Positions 6,277-14,022 of a stretch of DNA of 41,616 bases are shown here, piece by piece. The position numbers and the translations under genes were made by a program. Every line of letters begins with the position of its first letter. The stretch's first letter is position 1. The notes beneath the pieces are model-generated. The model had not been told where the DNA came from. It did not search any database and saw nothing but the letters and a program-made list of their open reading frames with translations. The stretch comes from Cyanobium sp. (lineage in GTDB: Bacteria > Cyanobacteriota > Cyanobacteriia > PCC-6307 > Cyanobiaceae), in NCBI GenBank assembly GCA_007135755.1, contig SLIG01000087.1, forward strand, positions 1 to 41,616. The letters run 5' to 3'.

Positions 6277-6801
6277 ATGGGTCCGTCGATCGTTGCCGGG
6301 GCCGCCGCCCTGCTGCTGGTGCTCACCTGGAGCCTGCGGCGTCGCACACCACCCGCGCTGCTGCGCAGCACCGATGCCAGTGCCATCGCCGCGCTCAACC
6401 GGGCTCAGATTGCCCTGTTGCGCCAGGATTCAGGCTCCAGCGACGCAGGGCCTGCCGGCGCTGGGGCCGATGCGGTGGACGCTCCGGCCTCCAGGGCCGC
6501 TGGGGCGGGCGATGGTTCCATGCCCCCCCGCGCCGACGTCCGCCAGCGCGCCCAGCTCAGGTCTCGCCTGGAGCGGCAGCTGCGCGGGGATGGGACGCAA
6601 CGCCAGCAGGCCATGGCTATCGCCCGCCGCTGGGGTCAGCCGGATGCCCTGCCAGTGCTGCGCCGCGGCCTGCGCGATGTGGATCTCCGCGTGGTGGCGG
6701 AGGCGGCTCTGGGCCTGGAGCGCTTCCGCTGCTGCCCCCGGGCGGCCGCCACTGCGGGCCCTCAGCCGCCGCTGCCCCGCAACGTCTCGCGCACCCGGTA
6801 G
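6277..6801 (+). CDS. HEAT-repeat-like hypothetical protein with N-terminal TM segment
   Basis: 174 aa; N-terminal hydrophobic segment; RRWGQPDALPVLRRGLRDVDLRVVAEAALGLERF resembles a HEAT repeat. Confidence 0.6.
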   Translation: MGPSIVAGAAALLLVLTWSLRRRTPPALLRSTDASAIAALNRAQIALLRQDSGSSDAGPAGAGADAVDAPASRAAGAGDGSMPPRADVRQRAQLRSRLERQLRGDGTQRQQAMAIARRWGQPDALPVLRRGLRDVDLRVVAEAALGLERFRCCPRAAATAGPQPPLPRNVSRTR

Positions 6802-7712
6802 ATCGGTCGCCCCTGGCTTTCGTGATAGGTGCGCATCTGCAGCTCGGCCAGCAGGCCGAAGCAGAACAGCTGCACACCGGTGAGGAAGCTGATCAGGGCC
6901 ATCAGCAGCAGGGGCCGATCTCCCAGGTCGGTGCCCAGGATCAACTTCTCACCCACCAGCCAGAGGCTGATCAGCAGCCCCCCGCCCATCGCCGCCAGGC
7001 CGCCACCGCCGAACACGTGCATGGGGCGCGTGAGGAAGCGTTTCATGAACCACACCGTGAGCAGGTCCATCAGCACCCGGTAGGTGCGGTCGATGCCGTA
7101 GTTGCTGTGGCCGAAGCGGCGGGGCTGATGGTTCACCCGCACCTCGGCGATCCTGGCGCCCTCGATCGCCGCCAGGGCGGGCAGGAAGCGATGCAGCTCG
7201 CCGTAGAGGTTGAGATCGGCGACCACCTCGCGCCGGTAGGCCTTCAGGGAACAGCCGTAGTCGTGCAGGCGCAGGCCGGTGACGCGCCCGATCAGCCGGT
7301 TGGCGAGTCTGCTGGGCAGCAGGCGGCTGAGTGCCGCGTCCTGGCGCCGGTGGCGCCAGCCGCTCACCAGGTCGTATCCCTCCTCGAGGCGTCGCAGCAG
7401 GAGGGGGATGTCACGAGGGTCGTTCTGCAGATCGCCGTCGAGGGTCACGATCACCTCCCCCCGGCTGGTGTCGAAGCCGGCGGCCATGGCGGCCGTCTGG
7501 CCGTAGTTGCGGCGCAGCAGCACCGCCACCAGCTCGGGCACCTCGCTCTGCAGCTGCCGCAGCACCCCCGGTGTGCCATCCCCCGAACCGTCATCCACCA
7601 GCACCAGCTCGAAGCCCAGTCCCAGCGGACGCAGGGCATCGAGCAGGTCCCGCACCAGCAGCGGCAGGGTCTGTTCCTCGTTGTAGAGCGGCACCACCAC
7701 GGAGAGATCCAC
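6762..7712 (-). CDS. Family 2 glycosyltransferase (Dpm1/GtrB-like) with C-terminal TM helices
   Basis: MDLSVVVPLYNEEQTLP, VDDGSGDGT, TLDGDLQNDPRDIP motifs; two C-terminal hydrophobic segments. Confidence 0.93.
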   Translation of the reverse strand: MDLSVVVPLYNEEQTLPLLVRDLLDALRPLGLGFELVLVDDGSGDGTPGVLRQLQSEVPELVAVLLRRNYGQTAAMAAGFDTSRGEVIVTLDGDLQNDPRDIPLLLRRLEEGYDLVSGWRHRRQDAALSRLLPSRLANRLIGRVTGLRLHDYGCSLKAYRREVVADLNLYGELHRFLPALAAIEGARIAEVRVNHQPRRFGHSNYGIDRTYRVLMDLLTVWFMKRFLTRPMHVFGGGGLAAMGGGLLISLWLVGEKLILGTDLGDRPLLLMALISFLTGVQLFCFGLLAELQMRTYHESQGRPIYRVRETLRGSGG

Positions 7713-7736: not shown

Positions 7737-8549
7737 CTACGCGGGCAGGGGGCTGCCGTCGTGGCAGCGCATCACCCGCCCGGCGCCGCGCAGCTCGCGG
7801 CGGTAGTGCTGGGCCACCGGGTGCCGGTTGCGGGGGTTGAGGTCGTCGGTGCCGAGGCCGTTGCGGCCATGCTCCCGGCCCGAGCTGTGCAGGTAGCGGC
7901 CTCCGCCCAGGTGCAGTCCCACGTGGGTGCAGCGCCGCGGGCTGCCGAAGAAGATCAGATCACCCGGCTGCAGCAGCTGGACCTGGCCCGGCCGCACGGC
8001 CACCGGCTGGCAGAAGCGCTCCTGCAGGTAGGCGTCCCGCGGCAGCCAGATGCCAACGCTGGCGAAGGCGGCCTGAACCATGCCGGAGCAGTCGAAGTCG
8101 GGGCCGAGGGTGCCGCCCCACAGATAGGTGTTGGGGCGCTCGGCCGCCTCCAGGGCCCAGCCGAGCACCTGGCTGAGGAGCGGTTGGATGGCGGTGCGCT
8201 GCAACAGTCGCGGCCGGGGGCGGCTGGCGGCCACGGCGATCCCGAGCAGGGCTTCGGGGTTCACCCAGCCTGGGTAGCCATCCTCCAGCAGCCGCACCTG
8301 CAGCCGTTGCCCCGCAGCGCTGGTGGCGGCTGCCGGGCCAAGCACCTGCAGGCGCCGACCCGCTCCGGCCTGGGTGGCCAGGCCCTCGCCCCTGGGCCAG
8401 GCATGGAGATCAAGGGCTGCCTGCAGTTCCCAGATGCTGCCGGGCCGCAGCAGCTCCCGTGCCACCGGCGTTCCCGCCTCTGGCCCGCTGCCGCCTGGCA
8501 TGCCGGGGCCGGGGGTGGCGCCGACTGACTCGAGGGGCAGGGAGGGCAT
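7737..8549 (-). CDS. NlpC/P60 family cell-wall endopeptidase
   Basis: Catalytic motifs DFDCSGMVQ, THVGLHLGGG, YLHSSG; SH3-like N-terminal region. Confidence 0.9.
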   Translation of the reverse strand: MPSLPLESVGATPGPGMPGGSGPEAGTPVARELLRPGSIWELQAALDLHAWPRGEGLATQAGAGRRLQVLGPAAATSAAGQRLQVRLLEDGYPGWVNPEALLGIAVAASRPRPRLLQRTAIQPLLSQVLGWALEAAERPNTYLWGGTLGPDFDCSGMVQAAFASVGIWLPRDAYLQERFCQPVAVRPGQVQLLQPGDLIFFGSPRRCTHVGLHLGGGRYLHSSGREHGRNGLGTDDLNPRNRHPVAQHYRRELRGAGRVMRCHDGSPLPA

Positions 8550-8581
8550 GCCTAATCTCGCCGCAACGGTTGCCGGAAGTG

Positions 8582-9487
8582 ATGGCGTTCTACAGCCCCA
8601 GTCCGGCCATGGACCAGACCCTGGCGGATCTCGTGCGGGCGCTGGAACTGCAGGGCCGCACCGGCCTGGGCCAGAGGCTTTCGATCACCTGGGTGCGCTA
8701 CCCGAGCTCCCCGCGGCTGTCCGGAGCGGCCGCAGGTACTGGAGCGAGCTGGGCGGGCAGCCGTCAGCGCTACCCGGCCAGCGTGGTGAAGCTGGTGTAT
8801 CTGATCGCCGCCGAAGCCTGGCTGCAGGACGATCTGCTGGTGGACGAGCCTGAGCTGCGCCGCGCCCTGGCGGCGATGATTCAGGACTCCAGCAACGACG
8901 CCACCGGGCTGGTGGTGGATCTGCTCAGCGGCACCACCAGCGGTCCGGCGCTGCCGGCGGCGGCGATGGTCGGCTGGATCGAGCAGCGCCAGCTGGTGAA
9001 CCGCTGGCTGGCCGGACTGGGCTGGCCTGAACTGGAGGGCGTGAACGCCTGCCAGAAGACCTGGGGCGACGGGCCCTTCGGCCGCGAGCTCGAGTTCTAC
9101 GGCGCCAGCCTGGAGAACCGCAACCGCCTCAGCAGTGAGGCCACGGCCCGGATGCTGGAGGCCGTGATGGCCTCGGCTCTGGTGTCGCCGCCGGCCTGCG
9201 GGCGGATGCAGGCCCTGCTGGACCGCAGTCTCGATCCCGGCCTGCGGGCGGCCGATCCGGAAAACCAGGTGGATGGGTTTCTCGGTGAGGGCCTGCCGCC
9301 GGGATCCCTGCTGTGGAGCAAGGCCGGCTGGATGAGCCAGGCCCGCCACGATGCCGCCTACGTCGAGGCGGAGGATCACAACCCCTTCGTGCTGGTGGTG
9401 TTCAGTGAGGGTGAGGCCTGCGCGGCCGACACCACCCTGCTGCCCGAGATCTCCCGCAGGCTCAGTGCCGCCTGCAGGGTTGGGTGA
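8582..9487 (+). CDS. Beta-lactamase class A-like serine hydrolase
   Basis: SxxK (SVVK), SxN (SSN in MIQDSSNDATG), KTG-like KAG (LLWSKAGW). ATG at 8582 chosen within the 8459 track ORF. Confidence 0.85.
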   Translation: MAFYSPSPAMDQTLADLVRALELQGRTGLGQRLSITWVRYPSSPRLSGAAAGTGASWAGSRQRYPASVVKLVYLIAAEAWLQDDLLVDEPELRRALAAMIQDSSNDATGLVVDLLSGTTSGPALPAAAMVGWIEQRQLVNRWLAGLGWPELEGVNACQKTWGDGPFGRELEFYGASLENRNRLSSEATARMLEAVMASALVSPPACGRMQALLDRSLDPGLRAADPENQVDGFLGEGLPPGSLLWSKAGWMSQARHDAAYVEAEDHNPFVLVVFSEGEACAADTTLLPEISRRLSAACRVG

Positions 9488-9509
9488 GGGGTCGTGGGTG
9501 AGGAACAAC

Positions 9510-9597
9510 GGAGAGGGAGGGATTCGAACCCTCGACAGAAGTTGCCTCCTGTAACTCCTTAGCAGGGAGCCGCTTTCAACCGCTCAGCCACCTCTCC
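9510..9597 (-). tRNA. tRNA-Ser(GCU)
   Basis: Class II tRNA: GGAGAGG acceptor, CTCCC-TGCTAAG-GAG anticodon arm with GCT, variable arm, GGTTCGAATCC T-arm. Confidence 0.97.
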
Positions 9598-9657
9598 AGC
9601 GGCTTCAGGAGCTTACCTGAACGCACCGGTCCGTCCGGCTCTCCGATGGCTGCCGCC

Positions 9658-12150
9658 TCAGCCCCCCCGGAAGATGCGCTGCACGCGCCGGCCGTCGACC
9701 TGCACCAGCAGGTCGTAGGGGATGGTGCCTGCCTGGATGGCCGCCTGCTCCGGGCGGAGCACCTGGCCCTCGTGGGCCCCGAAGATCAGCACCTCATCAC
9801 CCACTGCCGCATGCGGCAGTGGGTCCAAATCGATCGCCATCGAGTCCATCGACACACGGCCCAGCACCGCCAGGCGCTTACCCTGCATCACCACCTCGCC
9901 ACGGTTGCCGAACCGCCAGGGCACGCCGTCGTTGTAGCCAGCGGCCACGATGCCGATGCGCTGGCGTTGGGCGATCACCTGATAGGTGCCGTTGTAGCCG
10001 ATGCGCTGGCCCTTGCTGCAGTGGCGCACCTGCACCAGGCGGCTGATGAACGCCACCGCCAGCTCCAGCTCGATCGCGCCGGCCACGGCCGGCGAGGGAT
10101 GCAGGCCGAACAGGCCCAGGCCCACCCGCACCATGTCATAACGGGAGTCGGGGAAGCGTACGGCGCCGGAGGTGGCGGCCGCGTGCACCAGCAGGGGCGT
10201 GCCCAGTTCCCGGCGCAGCTCGTCCACCACCGGGTCAAACCTCCGCAGCTGAGCGGTGGTGTCGCCATCGGCGGCGGGATCATCGGCGCTCGCCAGATGC
10301 GTCATCACGCCGCTCACGGTCACGACGCCGGAGTCGCGCAGCAGCCGGGCGGCGGCCAGCGCCTCCTCCGGGGCCACGCCGAGGCGACCCATGCCCGTGT
10401 CGATCTCGAGGTGGACATCCAGGCGGGCGCCCATCGCCTGCAGTGTTGCCACCAGGGTGCGGGCAAACGGTAGGGAATAGACCACCGGCGTCAGCCGCCA
10501 GCGCACCGCCTTGTCCACCTCATCGGTGTCCATCAGCATCACCAGCACCGGCCGGTGCACGCCGGCCCGGCGGATGGCGGCACCCTCGTCGGCGGCGGAG
10601 ACGCCGATCCAGTCGATGCCGCTGTCCTGCAGCGCCGTCGCCAGCCGGGGCAGCTCGGTGCCGTAGGCCCAGGCCTTGAGCACCGCCAGCATCGCCACCC
10701 CGGGGCCGCAGAGGGCGCGGAAGCGGGCGACGTTGTCGCGGATGGCGTCGAGATCCACCAGCAGGCGGCGCGGCGCCATCGATTCCCAGATCGCCCGGGC
10801 CGCACTGCTCAGCTCCTGGCGGGCGGCACCCTTGAGCAGCACGGTGTCTCCGGGTTCGGCGAGCTGCCGGATCGTGTCGCGCAGGGCAGCGGTGTCGCCC
10901 AGTTCCCGGGCCGCACGGCCGGGATGGCGCGCATTCCAGGCCGCGGCGGTGTGGGTGCGGGCAGGATGGGGCAGCAGCAGCAGCTCCGCGAAGCCCCGCT
11001 CGGCCGCCATCCGCCCGATCAGCTCGTGTTCCCGCTGTTCGCCGGAGCCCAGATCCGCCATCCCACCGAACACGAACAGGCGCCGGCCGCCTTCCGGGGA
11101 GGAGGCCACCGTGGCCATGGCGGTGTGCACCGAGAGCGGATCGTCGCTGGCGGTGTCGTTGACAATCGTGATGCCCTCCGGAGTCCGCCAGGTCTCCATG
11201 CGGGTGGGACCGAACGTGTAGTCCTGCAGCACCGCCACCATCTCCTCGGCGGGAACCCCCAGCCGCTGGGCGGCGGTCATGGCGATCAGCAGGTCCTCGA
11301 TGAGGGGCTGGGAGCGGGTGTGTACCGACACCTGGGCCTGGCTGCCGCCCAGATCGAGGTGCAGCAGCATCCCGCTGCCCTGGGGGCTCTGGCCCAGCAG
11401 CCGCGGTGGTCCGGAGCCGGGGTGGATGCGGGGGCAGGGAAGCGGCTGGGCGTTCACCAGCGGGTCATCCGGGGCGATCACCCAGCCCAGCTCGTCCATG
11501 TTCTGGAACAGGCGCATCTTCTCGCGTGCCGTCACCTCGCGGCTGCCGAAGCTGCCCAGGTGGGCCAGGCCCACGTTCACCAGCACGCCGTGGTCGGGTG
11601 TCAGGATCGCTGCCAGGCGCTCCATCTCGCCCGGGGCCGAGATTCCGGCCTCGAAGATCCCCAGTTCGGTGCCGGGCGGAGCCGTGAGCACCGCCAGGGG
11701 CACGCCCACCTGGCTGTTCCAGCTGCCGGGGCTGGCGGCCACACGGAAGCGGCCGGCCAGCAGAGCGGTGAGGGCGGCCTTGACCACCGTCTTGCCGTTG
11801 CTGCCGGTGATCGCCACCACCTTGCGGATGTGGGTGCGGCGGTACCAGGCGGCGATCCGCTGCAGGGCCAGCAGCGGATCGCTCACCAGCAGGCGGGCAC
11901 AGCCCGGCCGACCCGGGCCTGAGTCGGGGCAGCGGTCCCGCCGCAGCACCACCAGCGACGCCCCGGCGGCTTCGGCCGCCTCCACGAAGTCGTGGCCGTC
12001 GCAGTGGCGGCCCCCCAGGGCAACGAACAGATCGCCCGGCAGCACCCGGCGTGAGTCGATGGCCACCGCGCGCAGGGGCTGCTCCGCCGGCACTCCCCGC
12101 AGCTCGCCATCCAGCAGGGTGACCAGCTCTCGTGGTGAGGGAAGGGTCAT
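9658..12150 (-). CDS. MurF (UDP-MurNAc-tripeptide--D-Ala-D-Ala ligase) fused to alanine racemase
   Basis: Uninterrupted ORF. N-half: AITGSNGKT P-loop, NSQVGVPL, FEAGISAPGEMERL. C-half: PLP-Lys region LKAWAYG, IGYNGTY, LGRVSMDSMAID, GTIPYDLL...RVQRIF. Start MTLPSPRELV (12150) preferred; 12192 is an alternative. Confidence 0.92.
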   Translation of the reverse strand: MTLPSPRELVTLLDGELRGVPAEQPLRAVAIDSRRVLPGDLFVALGGRHCDGHDFVEAAEAAGASLVVLRRDRCPDSGPGRPGCARLLVSDPLLALQRIAAWYRRTHIRKVVAITGSNGKTVVKAALTALLAGRFRVAASPGSWNSQVGVPLAVLTAPPGTELGIFEAGISAPGEMERLAAILTPDHGVLVNVGLAHLGSFGSREVTAREKMRLFQNMDELGWVIAPDDPLVNAQPLPCPRIHPGSGPPRLLGQSPQGSGMLLHLDLGGSQAQVSVHTRSQPLIEDLLIAMTAAQRLGVPAEEMVAVLQDYTFGPTRMETWRTPEGITIVNDTASDDPLSVHTAMATVASSPEGGRRLFVFGGMADLGSGEQREHELIGRMAAERGFAELLLLPHPARTHTAAAWNARHPGRAARELGDTAALRDTIRQLAEPGDTVLLKGAARQELSSAARAIWESMAPRRLLVDLDAIRDNVARFRALCGPGVAMLAVLKAWAYGTELPRLATALQDSGIDWIGVSAADEGAAIRRAGVHRPVLVMLMDTDEVDKAVRWRLTPVVYSLPFARTLVATLQAMGARLDVHLEIDTGMGRLGVAPEEALAAARLLRDSGVVTVSGVMTHLASADDPAADGDTTAQLRRFDPVVDELRRELGTPLLVHAAATSGAVRFPDSRYDMVRVGLGLFGLHPSPAVAGAIELELAVAFISRLVQVRHCSKGQRIGYNGTYQVIAQRQRIGIVAAGYNDGVPWRFGNRGEVVMQGKRLAVLGRVSMDSMAIDLDPLPHAAVGDEVLIFGAHEGQVLRPEQAAIQAGTIPYDLLVQVDGRRVQRIFRGG

Positions 12151-12242
12151 GGGGCAGGGCGTTCCGGCGGCATGCCCGGTCGTGGACGACACCGACCCCA
12201 GGGATCAGCTTCGTTAGCATTCTGAGAATGTTGGTTGTGGCG

Positions 12243-12788
12243 ATGGGGCACGTTCTCGTCCTCAATGCCTCCTATGAACCCCTCAACATCACCAGCTGGC
12301 GACGGGCCATGGTGATGCTGCTCAAGGGCAAGGCCGAGGGCCTCGAGCATGACCAGGCCCGGGTGATCCGCGACGACCTGCTGCTGCCCACTGTGATCCG
12401 TCTGCGCCAGTTCGTGCGGGTGCCCTACAAGCCCATGCCGCTCACCCGCCGCAACCTGTTCCATCGTGATGGGCATCGTTGTCAGTACTGCGGCTACAGC
12501 GGGGAGCGGCTCTCGATCGACCACATCCTGCCGCGCAGCCGCGGCGGCATCGACAGCTGGGAGAACGTGACCACCGCCTGCCTGCCCTGCAACGTGCGCA
12601 AGGGCAACCGCACCCCCAGGGAGGCGGGGATGGCTCTGGCGCGGCGCCCCCACCGGCCCCTCAGCGGCCCGGGATTCGAGGCCAGCCGGCTGGTGCGTGC
12701 CGGGCAGCACCGGGAGTGGGCCAAGTACGTGATCGGCCTGGAGGTGGTGGACGGCGACAGCAGCGGCGGACTCCGCCTGGTGGCCTAA
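12243..12788 (+). CDS. HNH endonuclease family protein
   Basis: CQYCGYSGERLSIDHILPRSRGGIDSWENVTTACLPCNVRKGNRTP; start MGHVLVLNASYEPLN. Alternative ATG at 12228. Confidence 0.92.
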   Translation: MGHVLVLNASYEPLNITSWRRAMVMLLKGKAEGLEHDQARVIRDDLLLPTVIRLRQFVRVPYKPMPLTRRNLFHRDGHRCQYCGYSGERLSIDHILPRSRGGIDSWENVTTACLPCNVRKGNRTPREAGMALARRPHRPLSGPGFEASRLVRAGQHREWAKYVIGLEVVDGDSSGGLRLVA

Positions 12789-12811: not shown

Positions 12812-13915
12812 CTAGGAGGAGCTGGCGGCGGAGGCGGCCAGTTCCTCCAGTTGCCGGGCCTGGTCCGCGGCGATGCAGGCCGCGATCAGGTCCCCCAGGT
12901 CGCCGTTGAGCACGGGCTCGAGGGTGAAATTGCGGCCCAGCCGGTGATCGGTCACCCGGTTGTCCTTGTAGTTGTACGTGCGGATCTTCTCGCTGCGGTC
13001 GCCGCTGCCAACCTGGGCCAGGCGGGCGGAGCGTTCCTGGGCATTGGCCTCGGCCAGCTCACGTTCATAGAGCTTGGCCCGCAGGATCTCCAGGGCCAGC
13101 TCCCGGTTCTGCAGCTGGGAGCGCTGCTGGGTGCAGAAGATGCGGATGCCGCTGGGCCGGTGGAACAGGTCCACGGCCGTTTCCACCTTGTTGACGTTCT
13201 GGCCTCCGGCCCCGCCGGAGCGGGCGGTGCTGATCTCCAGATCGCCGGGCTCGATCCGCACCTCCACCGGATCGGCCTCGGGCATCACCGCCACCGTGGC
13301 GGTGGAGGTGTGCACCCGGCCCTGGGATTCGGTGGCCGGCACCCGCTGCACCCGATGGACGCCGGCCTCGAACTTCAGCTGGCTGAACACGCCCTCGCCG
13401 CGAACGGCCAGGATCAGTTCCCTGTAGCCCCCCAGCTCGGCCTCCGAGGCGCTCACCGGATCCACCCGCCAGCCGCTGCTCTGGGCGAAGCGCTCATACA
13501 TCCGCGCCAGGTCGCCGGCCCAGATCGCCGCCTCATCACCCCCTGCCCCGGCGCGGATCTCCAGCATCACGCTGCGCGCGTCGCGGGGATCGCTAGGTAG
13601 CAGGGCGAGGGTGAGCCGCTGCCGCAGGGCCGCCATCTGCTGATCCAGCGCGACCAGTTCTTCGCTGGCGAGGGCCGCCATGGCCGGATCGTTGCGTTGC
13701 TCCCGCAGCAGCTCACCGGCCTCGCGGTGCTCCTGCTCCAGTTGCAGAAGGCGCTGCTGGTCGAGCACCAGCGGTTCCAGCCGGGAGCGCTCGCGGGCGA
13801 TCCGCTGGAGCTCGGCCGGATTGGAGGCCACATCGGGGTCGGCCAGTTGCCGCTCCAGGGCCGCAAAGGTGCGGTGGGCGGTCTCCAGGCGCTCGTGGAG
13901 CAGGGAAAGGTCCAT
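12812..13915 (-). CDS. prfA: Peptide chain release factor 1
   Basis: [15 protein letters not shown] and [22 protein letters not shown]; start [11 protein letters not shown] at 13915. Confidence 0.97.
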
Positions 13916-14022
13916 GGCGGGATCCTGGCAGCGAGCGCCGCGGCTGATCAGCACAAAGCCGGATACCCGATGGCATCCGGCCGTTGGCAGCCCCCGGGTC
14001 GGGGTTGCTCAGGAGGTGACCT

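Follow-up and report, generated by a model that had tools for sequence, protein, structure and literature searches.

Fusions of MurF with alanine racemase (Alr) are already known as such, and an NCBIfam model exists for them. This model, PRK11930/NF008897, describes a bifunctional UDP-MurNAc-tripeptide:D-Ala-D-Ala ligase/alanine racemase, which is abundant in Bacteroidota. In the literature searched, no characterised MurF-Alr fusion was found, and the fusion is not described in cyanobacteria or Myxococcota. The substrate of canonical MurF is D-Ala-D-Ala, the product of Ddl, a separate protein acting between Alr and MurF. A precedent for a MurF-type domain in a new role with a partner is MurT of MurT/GatD, which has two asparagines in the adenine pocket and whose activity is abolished by the substitution N267Y (PMC6113224).

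A murF-alr fusion gene with the domain order of PRK11930/NF008897 is encoded in the window, the 41,616-nucleotide stretch of Cyanobium sp. DNA analyzed here (Table 1). The protein aligns to NF008897 over its full length (residues 24-841), yet its score of 564.5 bits is below the equivalog cut-off of 804; a relative from Myxococcota (L151) scores 578 bits. It also differs from the described family in belonging to a separate branch from Myxococcota, Acidobacteriota, and Cyanobacteria, in the loss of the D-x-Y-N motif, and in occurring as an allele at the native alr locus. Myxococcota and Acidobacteriota here designate the phylum of a Myxococcales MAG and the phylum of an Acidobacteria MAG, respectively. 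The halves share their folds and catalytic cores with stand-alone MurF (TIGR01143) and Alr (TIGR00492), but stand-alone MurF is set apart in the tree from the MurF half of the window. MurT has no N domain, whereas this MurF half has all three Mur domains. Very probably, the gene is a foreign fusion of the Myxococcota/Acidobacteriota subtype that was swapped in place for the native alr, with the Alr half as the working racemase and the MurF half as an altered second ligase. Within the literature searched, and as far as shown here, the non-Bacteroidota branch, its arrival in cyanobacteria, the allelic exchange in place with the native alr, and the presence of a separate MurF alongside the fusion are new.

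Table 1. Features of the murF-alr locus and its flanks in the window.
Feature	Position	Strand	Remarks
murF-alr fusion gene, probable CDS	9658..12150	minus	ATG 12150 to TGA 9658-9660, 830 aa
MurF half	10798..12150	minus	P0001 residues 15-465; Mur ligase N, middle, and C domains
Alanine racemase half	9670..10761	minus	Residues 478-841; TIGR00492 274 bits, cut-off 168
ATP P-loop TGSNGKT	11788..11808	minus	Residues 129-135, Mur ligase
NDTASDDP	11137..11160	minus	Residues 345-352; aligned with the MurF motif D-x-Y-N-A-N-P
Lys506, predicted PLP-binding lysine of Alr (KAWAYG)	10675..10677	minus	From alignment
Tyr733, predicted catalytic tyrosine of Alr (IGYNGTY)	9994..9996	minus	From alignment
Exchanged tract	9616..12241		DNA comparison with G997 and G030/G1023
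tRNA-Ser (GCT)	9508..9598	minus	Lies downstream, with 59 bp between it and the fusion; one of the two conserved edges of the exchange
HNH endonuclease gene, divergent neighbour	12243..12788	plus	Putative ATG 12243 (listed ORF 12132-12788); other conserved edge
prfA	12812..13954	minus	Conserved flank; then ribosomal-protein genes, truA, rpoA
Beta-lactamase-fold (PF13354) gene	8459..9487	plus	Conserved flank beyond tRNA-Ser
NlpC/P60 peptidase gene with SH3 domain	7737..8549	minus	Conserved flank
Glycosyltransferase family 2 gene	6762..7712	minus	Conserved flank

As had been stated in the preliminary description, MurF and Alr are joined in one uninterrupted frame (9658-12192, minus strand; 844 aa counted from GTG 12192), and both are intact. 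The start codon is probably ATG 12150 (residue 15), because P14-M15, with the Met of PCPMTLP, is identical in all five fusions of the first alignment and an in-frame stop just upstream is apparent in several relatives. Residues 42-456 match the Pfam domains Mur_ligase N/M/C and residues 479-840 match Ala_racemase N/C, all five above their cut-offs. The AlphaFold model is confident (mean pLDDT 89.8), and its halves match solved structures of alanine racemases and MurF, including P. aeruginosa MurF (4cvk/4cvm) with Foldseek.

Among 400 genomes of Cyanobiaceae, the fusion occurs in 26, which belong to three genera, g1 (4 genomes), g6 (20), and g51 (2); g1 and g6 also include genomes with an ordinary alr. 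Across the cyanobacterial phylum only 3 of the 386 sampled genomes encode it, which agrees with the earlier statement that cyanobacteria usually have separate genes. An assembly frameshift joining two genes, the alternative named beforehand, is rejected because the fusion is present also in these Cyanobiaceae genomes, one of which (G062) is a single contig, and in Myxococcota and Acidobacteriota; contamination is likewise ruled out, with cyanobacterial genes on both flanks. One MAG, G1183, contains two overlapping pieces of the fusion (C158:5-2008 and C74:7927-9117), which could be two copies or the product of a fragmented or mixed assembly.

The gene order rpoA-...-prfA-HNH-(alr or fusion)-beta-lactamase-like-NlpC/P60-GT2 is identical in all 17 loci compared, and the stand-alone alr of relatives and the fusion occupy exactly one slot, between the HNH gene and tRNA-Ser. 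Conserved genes resembling cell-envelope functions (the beta-lactamase-fold protein, the NlpC/P60 peptidase, and the GT2 glycosyltransferase) adjoin this slot. The nearest relative of the window by flanking genes and DNA is G997, which bears an ordinary alr. The two show 96% DNA identity up to 9615 and from 12242, and no homology in between, pointing to an in-place exchange of about 2.6 kb. The reverse pattern is seen against G030 and G1023, which are ~95% identical to the window in 9616-12241 only and ~80-85% identical in the flanks. The edges of the exchanged tract coincide with the start codon of the HNH gene and with tRNA-Ser. The tree of flanking genes implies a minimum of five switches between alr and fusion, and monophyly of the fusion-bearing genomes is rejected (AU p = 6e-7). 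Thus, the native alr was replaced by the fusion in place at the alr locus. Homologous recombination in the conserved flanks would be the simplest mechanism. The in-place swap, the loss of the native alr, and the standing of the MurF half as a second MurF go beyond the preliminary description.

The fusion is horizontally acquired, as had been proposed, and its sequence relationships place it in the Myxococcota/Acidobacteriota subtype. In the scan of genome contigs, matches were found at 35% in a Myxococcales MAG, at 39% in an Acidobacteria MAG (MurF half), and at 26-31% in Bacteroidota. Searches of the two MAG phyla revealed much closer fusions: four from Myxococcota (G692, G624, G677, and G582; L151-L154), encoded in 7-9 Mb genomes and 63, 62, 57, and 54% identical to the window fusion over the whole length, and two from Acidobacteriota (46 and 43%). 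In the Alr tree, the cyanobacterial fusions form one clade (support 97) beside G692/G624 (94), and the native cyanobacterial alr is placed elsewhere. In the MurF tree, every fusion MurF half falls in one clade separate from all stand-alone MurF, while the cyanobacterial clade has no resolution in the tree of the MurF half alone (support 19). The Alr and MurF trees concur on the neighbours of the cyanobacterial fusions. In the whole-protein tree, 15 cyanobacterial fusions are one clade (99/98), sister to G692/G624 (100/99), and together these are nested stepwise within the Myxococcota/Acidobacteriota fusions. Grouping with cyanobacterial homologues is rejected by the AU test for Alr (p = 1.4e-5) and MurF (p = 7e-69), so that neither half branches inside its cyanobacterial counterparts. 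The donor lineage would be placed at the phylum level only, under a MAG-rich sampling, and the nesting suggests the direction of transfer. Most likely the fusion entered Cyanobiaceae once, and would then have spread among relatives via homologous recombination at the alr locus, displacing the native stand-alone alr.

Two other origins were considered. The preliminary description had taken several motifs as Bacteroidetes-like. Two of them, S-x-NSQ and EAGIS..GEM, do mark fusion-type MurF and are held in common with the Bacteroidota fusions, along with the equal domain order and the full-length match to PRK11930. Acquisition from Bacteroidota is nevertheless highly improbable, as the identity is 26-31% against 62-63% to the closest Myxococcota-phylum fusions, and grouping with Bacteroidota is rejected for both Alr (p = 1.7e-9) and MurF (p = 1e-4). 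What the Bacteroidota fusions likely share with the window is one original fusion event, as both halves are in one clade with them (support 99 and 99.9 for MurF, and 91 and 97 for Alr, in two trees each). Construction in place, with a murF copy inserted before the native cyanobacterial alr and diverging later, would account for the position of the fusion exactly at the native alr site. It is extremely improbable, however: the Alr half shares only ~30-37% identity with the native alr and clusters with those of other fusions, vertical descent is rejected for both halves, and stand-alone MurF lies outside the one clade that contains every fusion MurF half.

The Alr half exceeds the curated TIGR00492 cut-off, and the search with this model found no other alr in the genome of the window. 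Lys506 and Tyr733 are invariant across the 95 Alr rows checked, and every catalytic position checked in the alignment is kept. These conserved residues and the lack of another alr suggest that the Alr half is the working alanine racemase of the cell. Among 20 fusion genomes, G685 is unique in having a second alr over the cut-off (C262:537-1694, L289), whose branch in the Alr tree is very long. As a single-copy gene of the peptidoglycan pathway, this locus is presumably essential, and two distantly related alleles, the native alr and the foreign murF-alr, are swapped at it by recombination among close cyanobacteria. Such allele pairs in close relatives make it possible to test cleanly what difference the fusion makes.

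The MurF half scores 275.4-277.6 bits against TIGR01143, narrowly under the cut-off of 288.6, which its near-clade relatives exceed. The P-loop K134/T135, E181, H211, K225, R331, D346, and K454 are kept; among them, K134, T135, E181, H211, and K225 represent the GK(T) of the P-loop, the Mg-binding Glu, the His, and the predicted carbamylated Lys. K134/T135, E181, H211, K225, and R331 hardly vary among the rows; one row has H211N. The P-loop TGSNGKT is found in all fusions, and in stand-alone MurF likewise apart from N132 and one T129. The D-x-Y-N-A-N-P motif and an adenine-pocket Asn are absent: the former is replaced by NDTASDDP, as the reading NDTASDDPLS in the preliminary description correctly had it, and the latter by N300D. 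Degenerate motifs are likewise seen in G692, G624, G677, and G582 (NDATSSDP, NDAASADP, NDACSSDP, and NDACSADP), and the loss of Y348 and N349 is common to the cyanobacterial/Myxococcota near clade.

Compared with 45 stand-alone MurFs, N157S and N160S are changes of fusions generally (N at 160 in 45/45). N300D (N in 44/45) and Y348A/C/T (Y in 45/45) are restricted to the branch of the window. Position 349, N in 45/45, is S or A in this branch and S in some other fusions. R457 is replaced by A in most cyanobacterial rows. The alignment with P. aeruginosa MurF places L297 and D300 at the positions of the paired asparagines, and they would correspond to the adenine-pocket asparagines of MurT. N300D, Y348A, and N349S are predicted to fall in the adenine and amino-acid sites. 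Purifying selection acts on both halves, with dN/dS of 0.15-0.33 (MurF) and 0.08-0.28 (Alr). A decaying pseudodomain was considered for the MurF half, and the dN/dS argues against neutral decay.

The genome of the window also encodes a separate MurF (L002, 467 aa) and a separate Ddl. In the proposed pathway, the Alr half would supply D-Ala, and the house Ddl and MurF would carry it into peptidoglycan. The fused MurF domain would be a second ligase, still using ATP but with altered adenine and amino-acid pockets, that works beside the house MurF and does not replace it. This role is less certain than that of Alr, and the MurF half may be retained mainly through its fusion to the only Alr. It could also be inactive, given the score just under the TIGR01143 cut-off and the changes at near-invariant residues. 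The channelling of D-Ala supply and use suggested earlier is weakened by the stand-alone MurF and by the separate Ddl; as the latter acts in between, a direct hand-over from Alr to a MurF of the canonical type is unlikely.

A fully redundant ordinary MurF, joining UDP-MurNAc-tripeptide and D-Ala-D-Ala, would fit the kept catalytic core, the three-domain model close to MurF, the near-clade relatives that pass the TIGR01143 cut-off, and the absence of murF from the dcw cluster of G692 and G624. With a house MurF present, and with N300D, Y348A, N349S, and the fusion-wide N157S and N160S at positions near-invariant in stand-alone MurFs, it is possible but rather doubtful. A MurF half without catalytic activity, serving Alr as a scaffold or regulator, seems unlikely: both predicted adenine-pocket Asn positions (L297 and D300) are changed, Y348 is lost, and a single Asn-to-Tyr change in this pocket abolished the activity of the related MurT (PMC6113224), but the kept P-loop Lys/Thr, Mg ligand E181, H211, K225, and R331 are hard to reconcile with it. 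It is quite unlikely, though conceivable, that in the branch of the window the half does not add D-Ala-D-Ala but is a different ligase, its pockets for amino acid and nucleotide having changed; for example, it might add D-Ala from its own Alr directly to UDP-MurNAc-peptide, giving a tetrapeptide precursor, or to another acceptor. Channelling would then be chemically direct without the Ddl step, and the separate MurF in nearly every fusion genome examined would be explained.

Most of the Myxococcota and Acidobacteriota fusion genomes tested retain a stand-alone MurF; in G476, a fragmentary assembly, it was not found. The neighbourhoods of the Myxococcota fusions are unlike that of the window, include acyltransferase and radical SAM genes, and proved uninformative. 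The dcw cluster of G692 and G624 reads murE-mraY-murD without murF, so the fusion might be the working MurF there. However, both genomes encode another MurF-like protein (L256:4669-6468(-) on G692 C56 and L257:5999-8224(+) on G624 C249), which scores 218-224 bits against TIGR01143, has an intact DAYNSNP, and carries, instead of the UDP-binding N domain, a hydrophobic N-terminal stretch that apparently spans the membrane. Its gene directly adjoins a Ddl gene, and the protein is possibly a membrane-bound MurF/Ddl replacement.

In Bacteroidota, a stand-alone MurF (358-403 bits) was found in all 12 genomes tested, and a further MurF match lies in a longer fusion-type frame in 11 of them. In all 12, the stand-alone MurF scores far above the MurF half of the fusion. 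The annotation as bifunctional MurF/Alr thus deserves doubt there too. Nearly every fusion genome examined, those of Bacteroidota among them, encodes a separate MurF in addition to the enzyme annotated as bifunctional, which makes the job of its MurF half a directly testable question.

No relative of the fusion was found in the viral contigs searched for carriage by mobile elements, and the sole match among plasmid records is distant. It is a gene of Phocaeicola (OY725991.1, 14734-16926), 28% identical to the fusion over 87% of its length. This gene is listed as vanT of a vanG cluster, but the glycopeptide-resistance label is probably wrong and the gene a MurF-Alr fusion.
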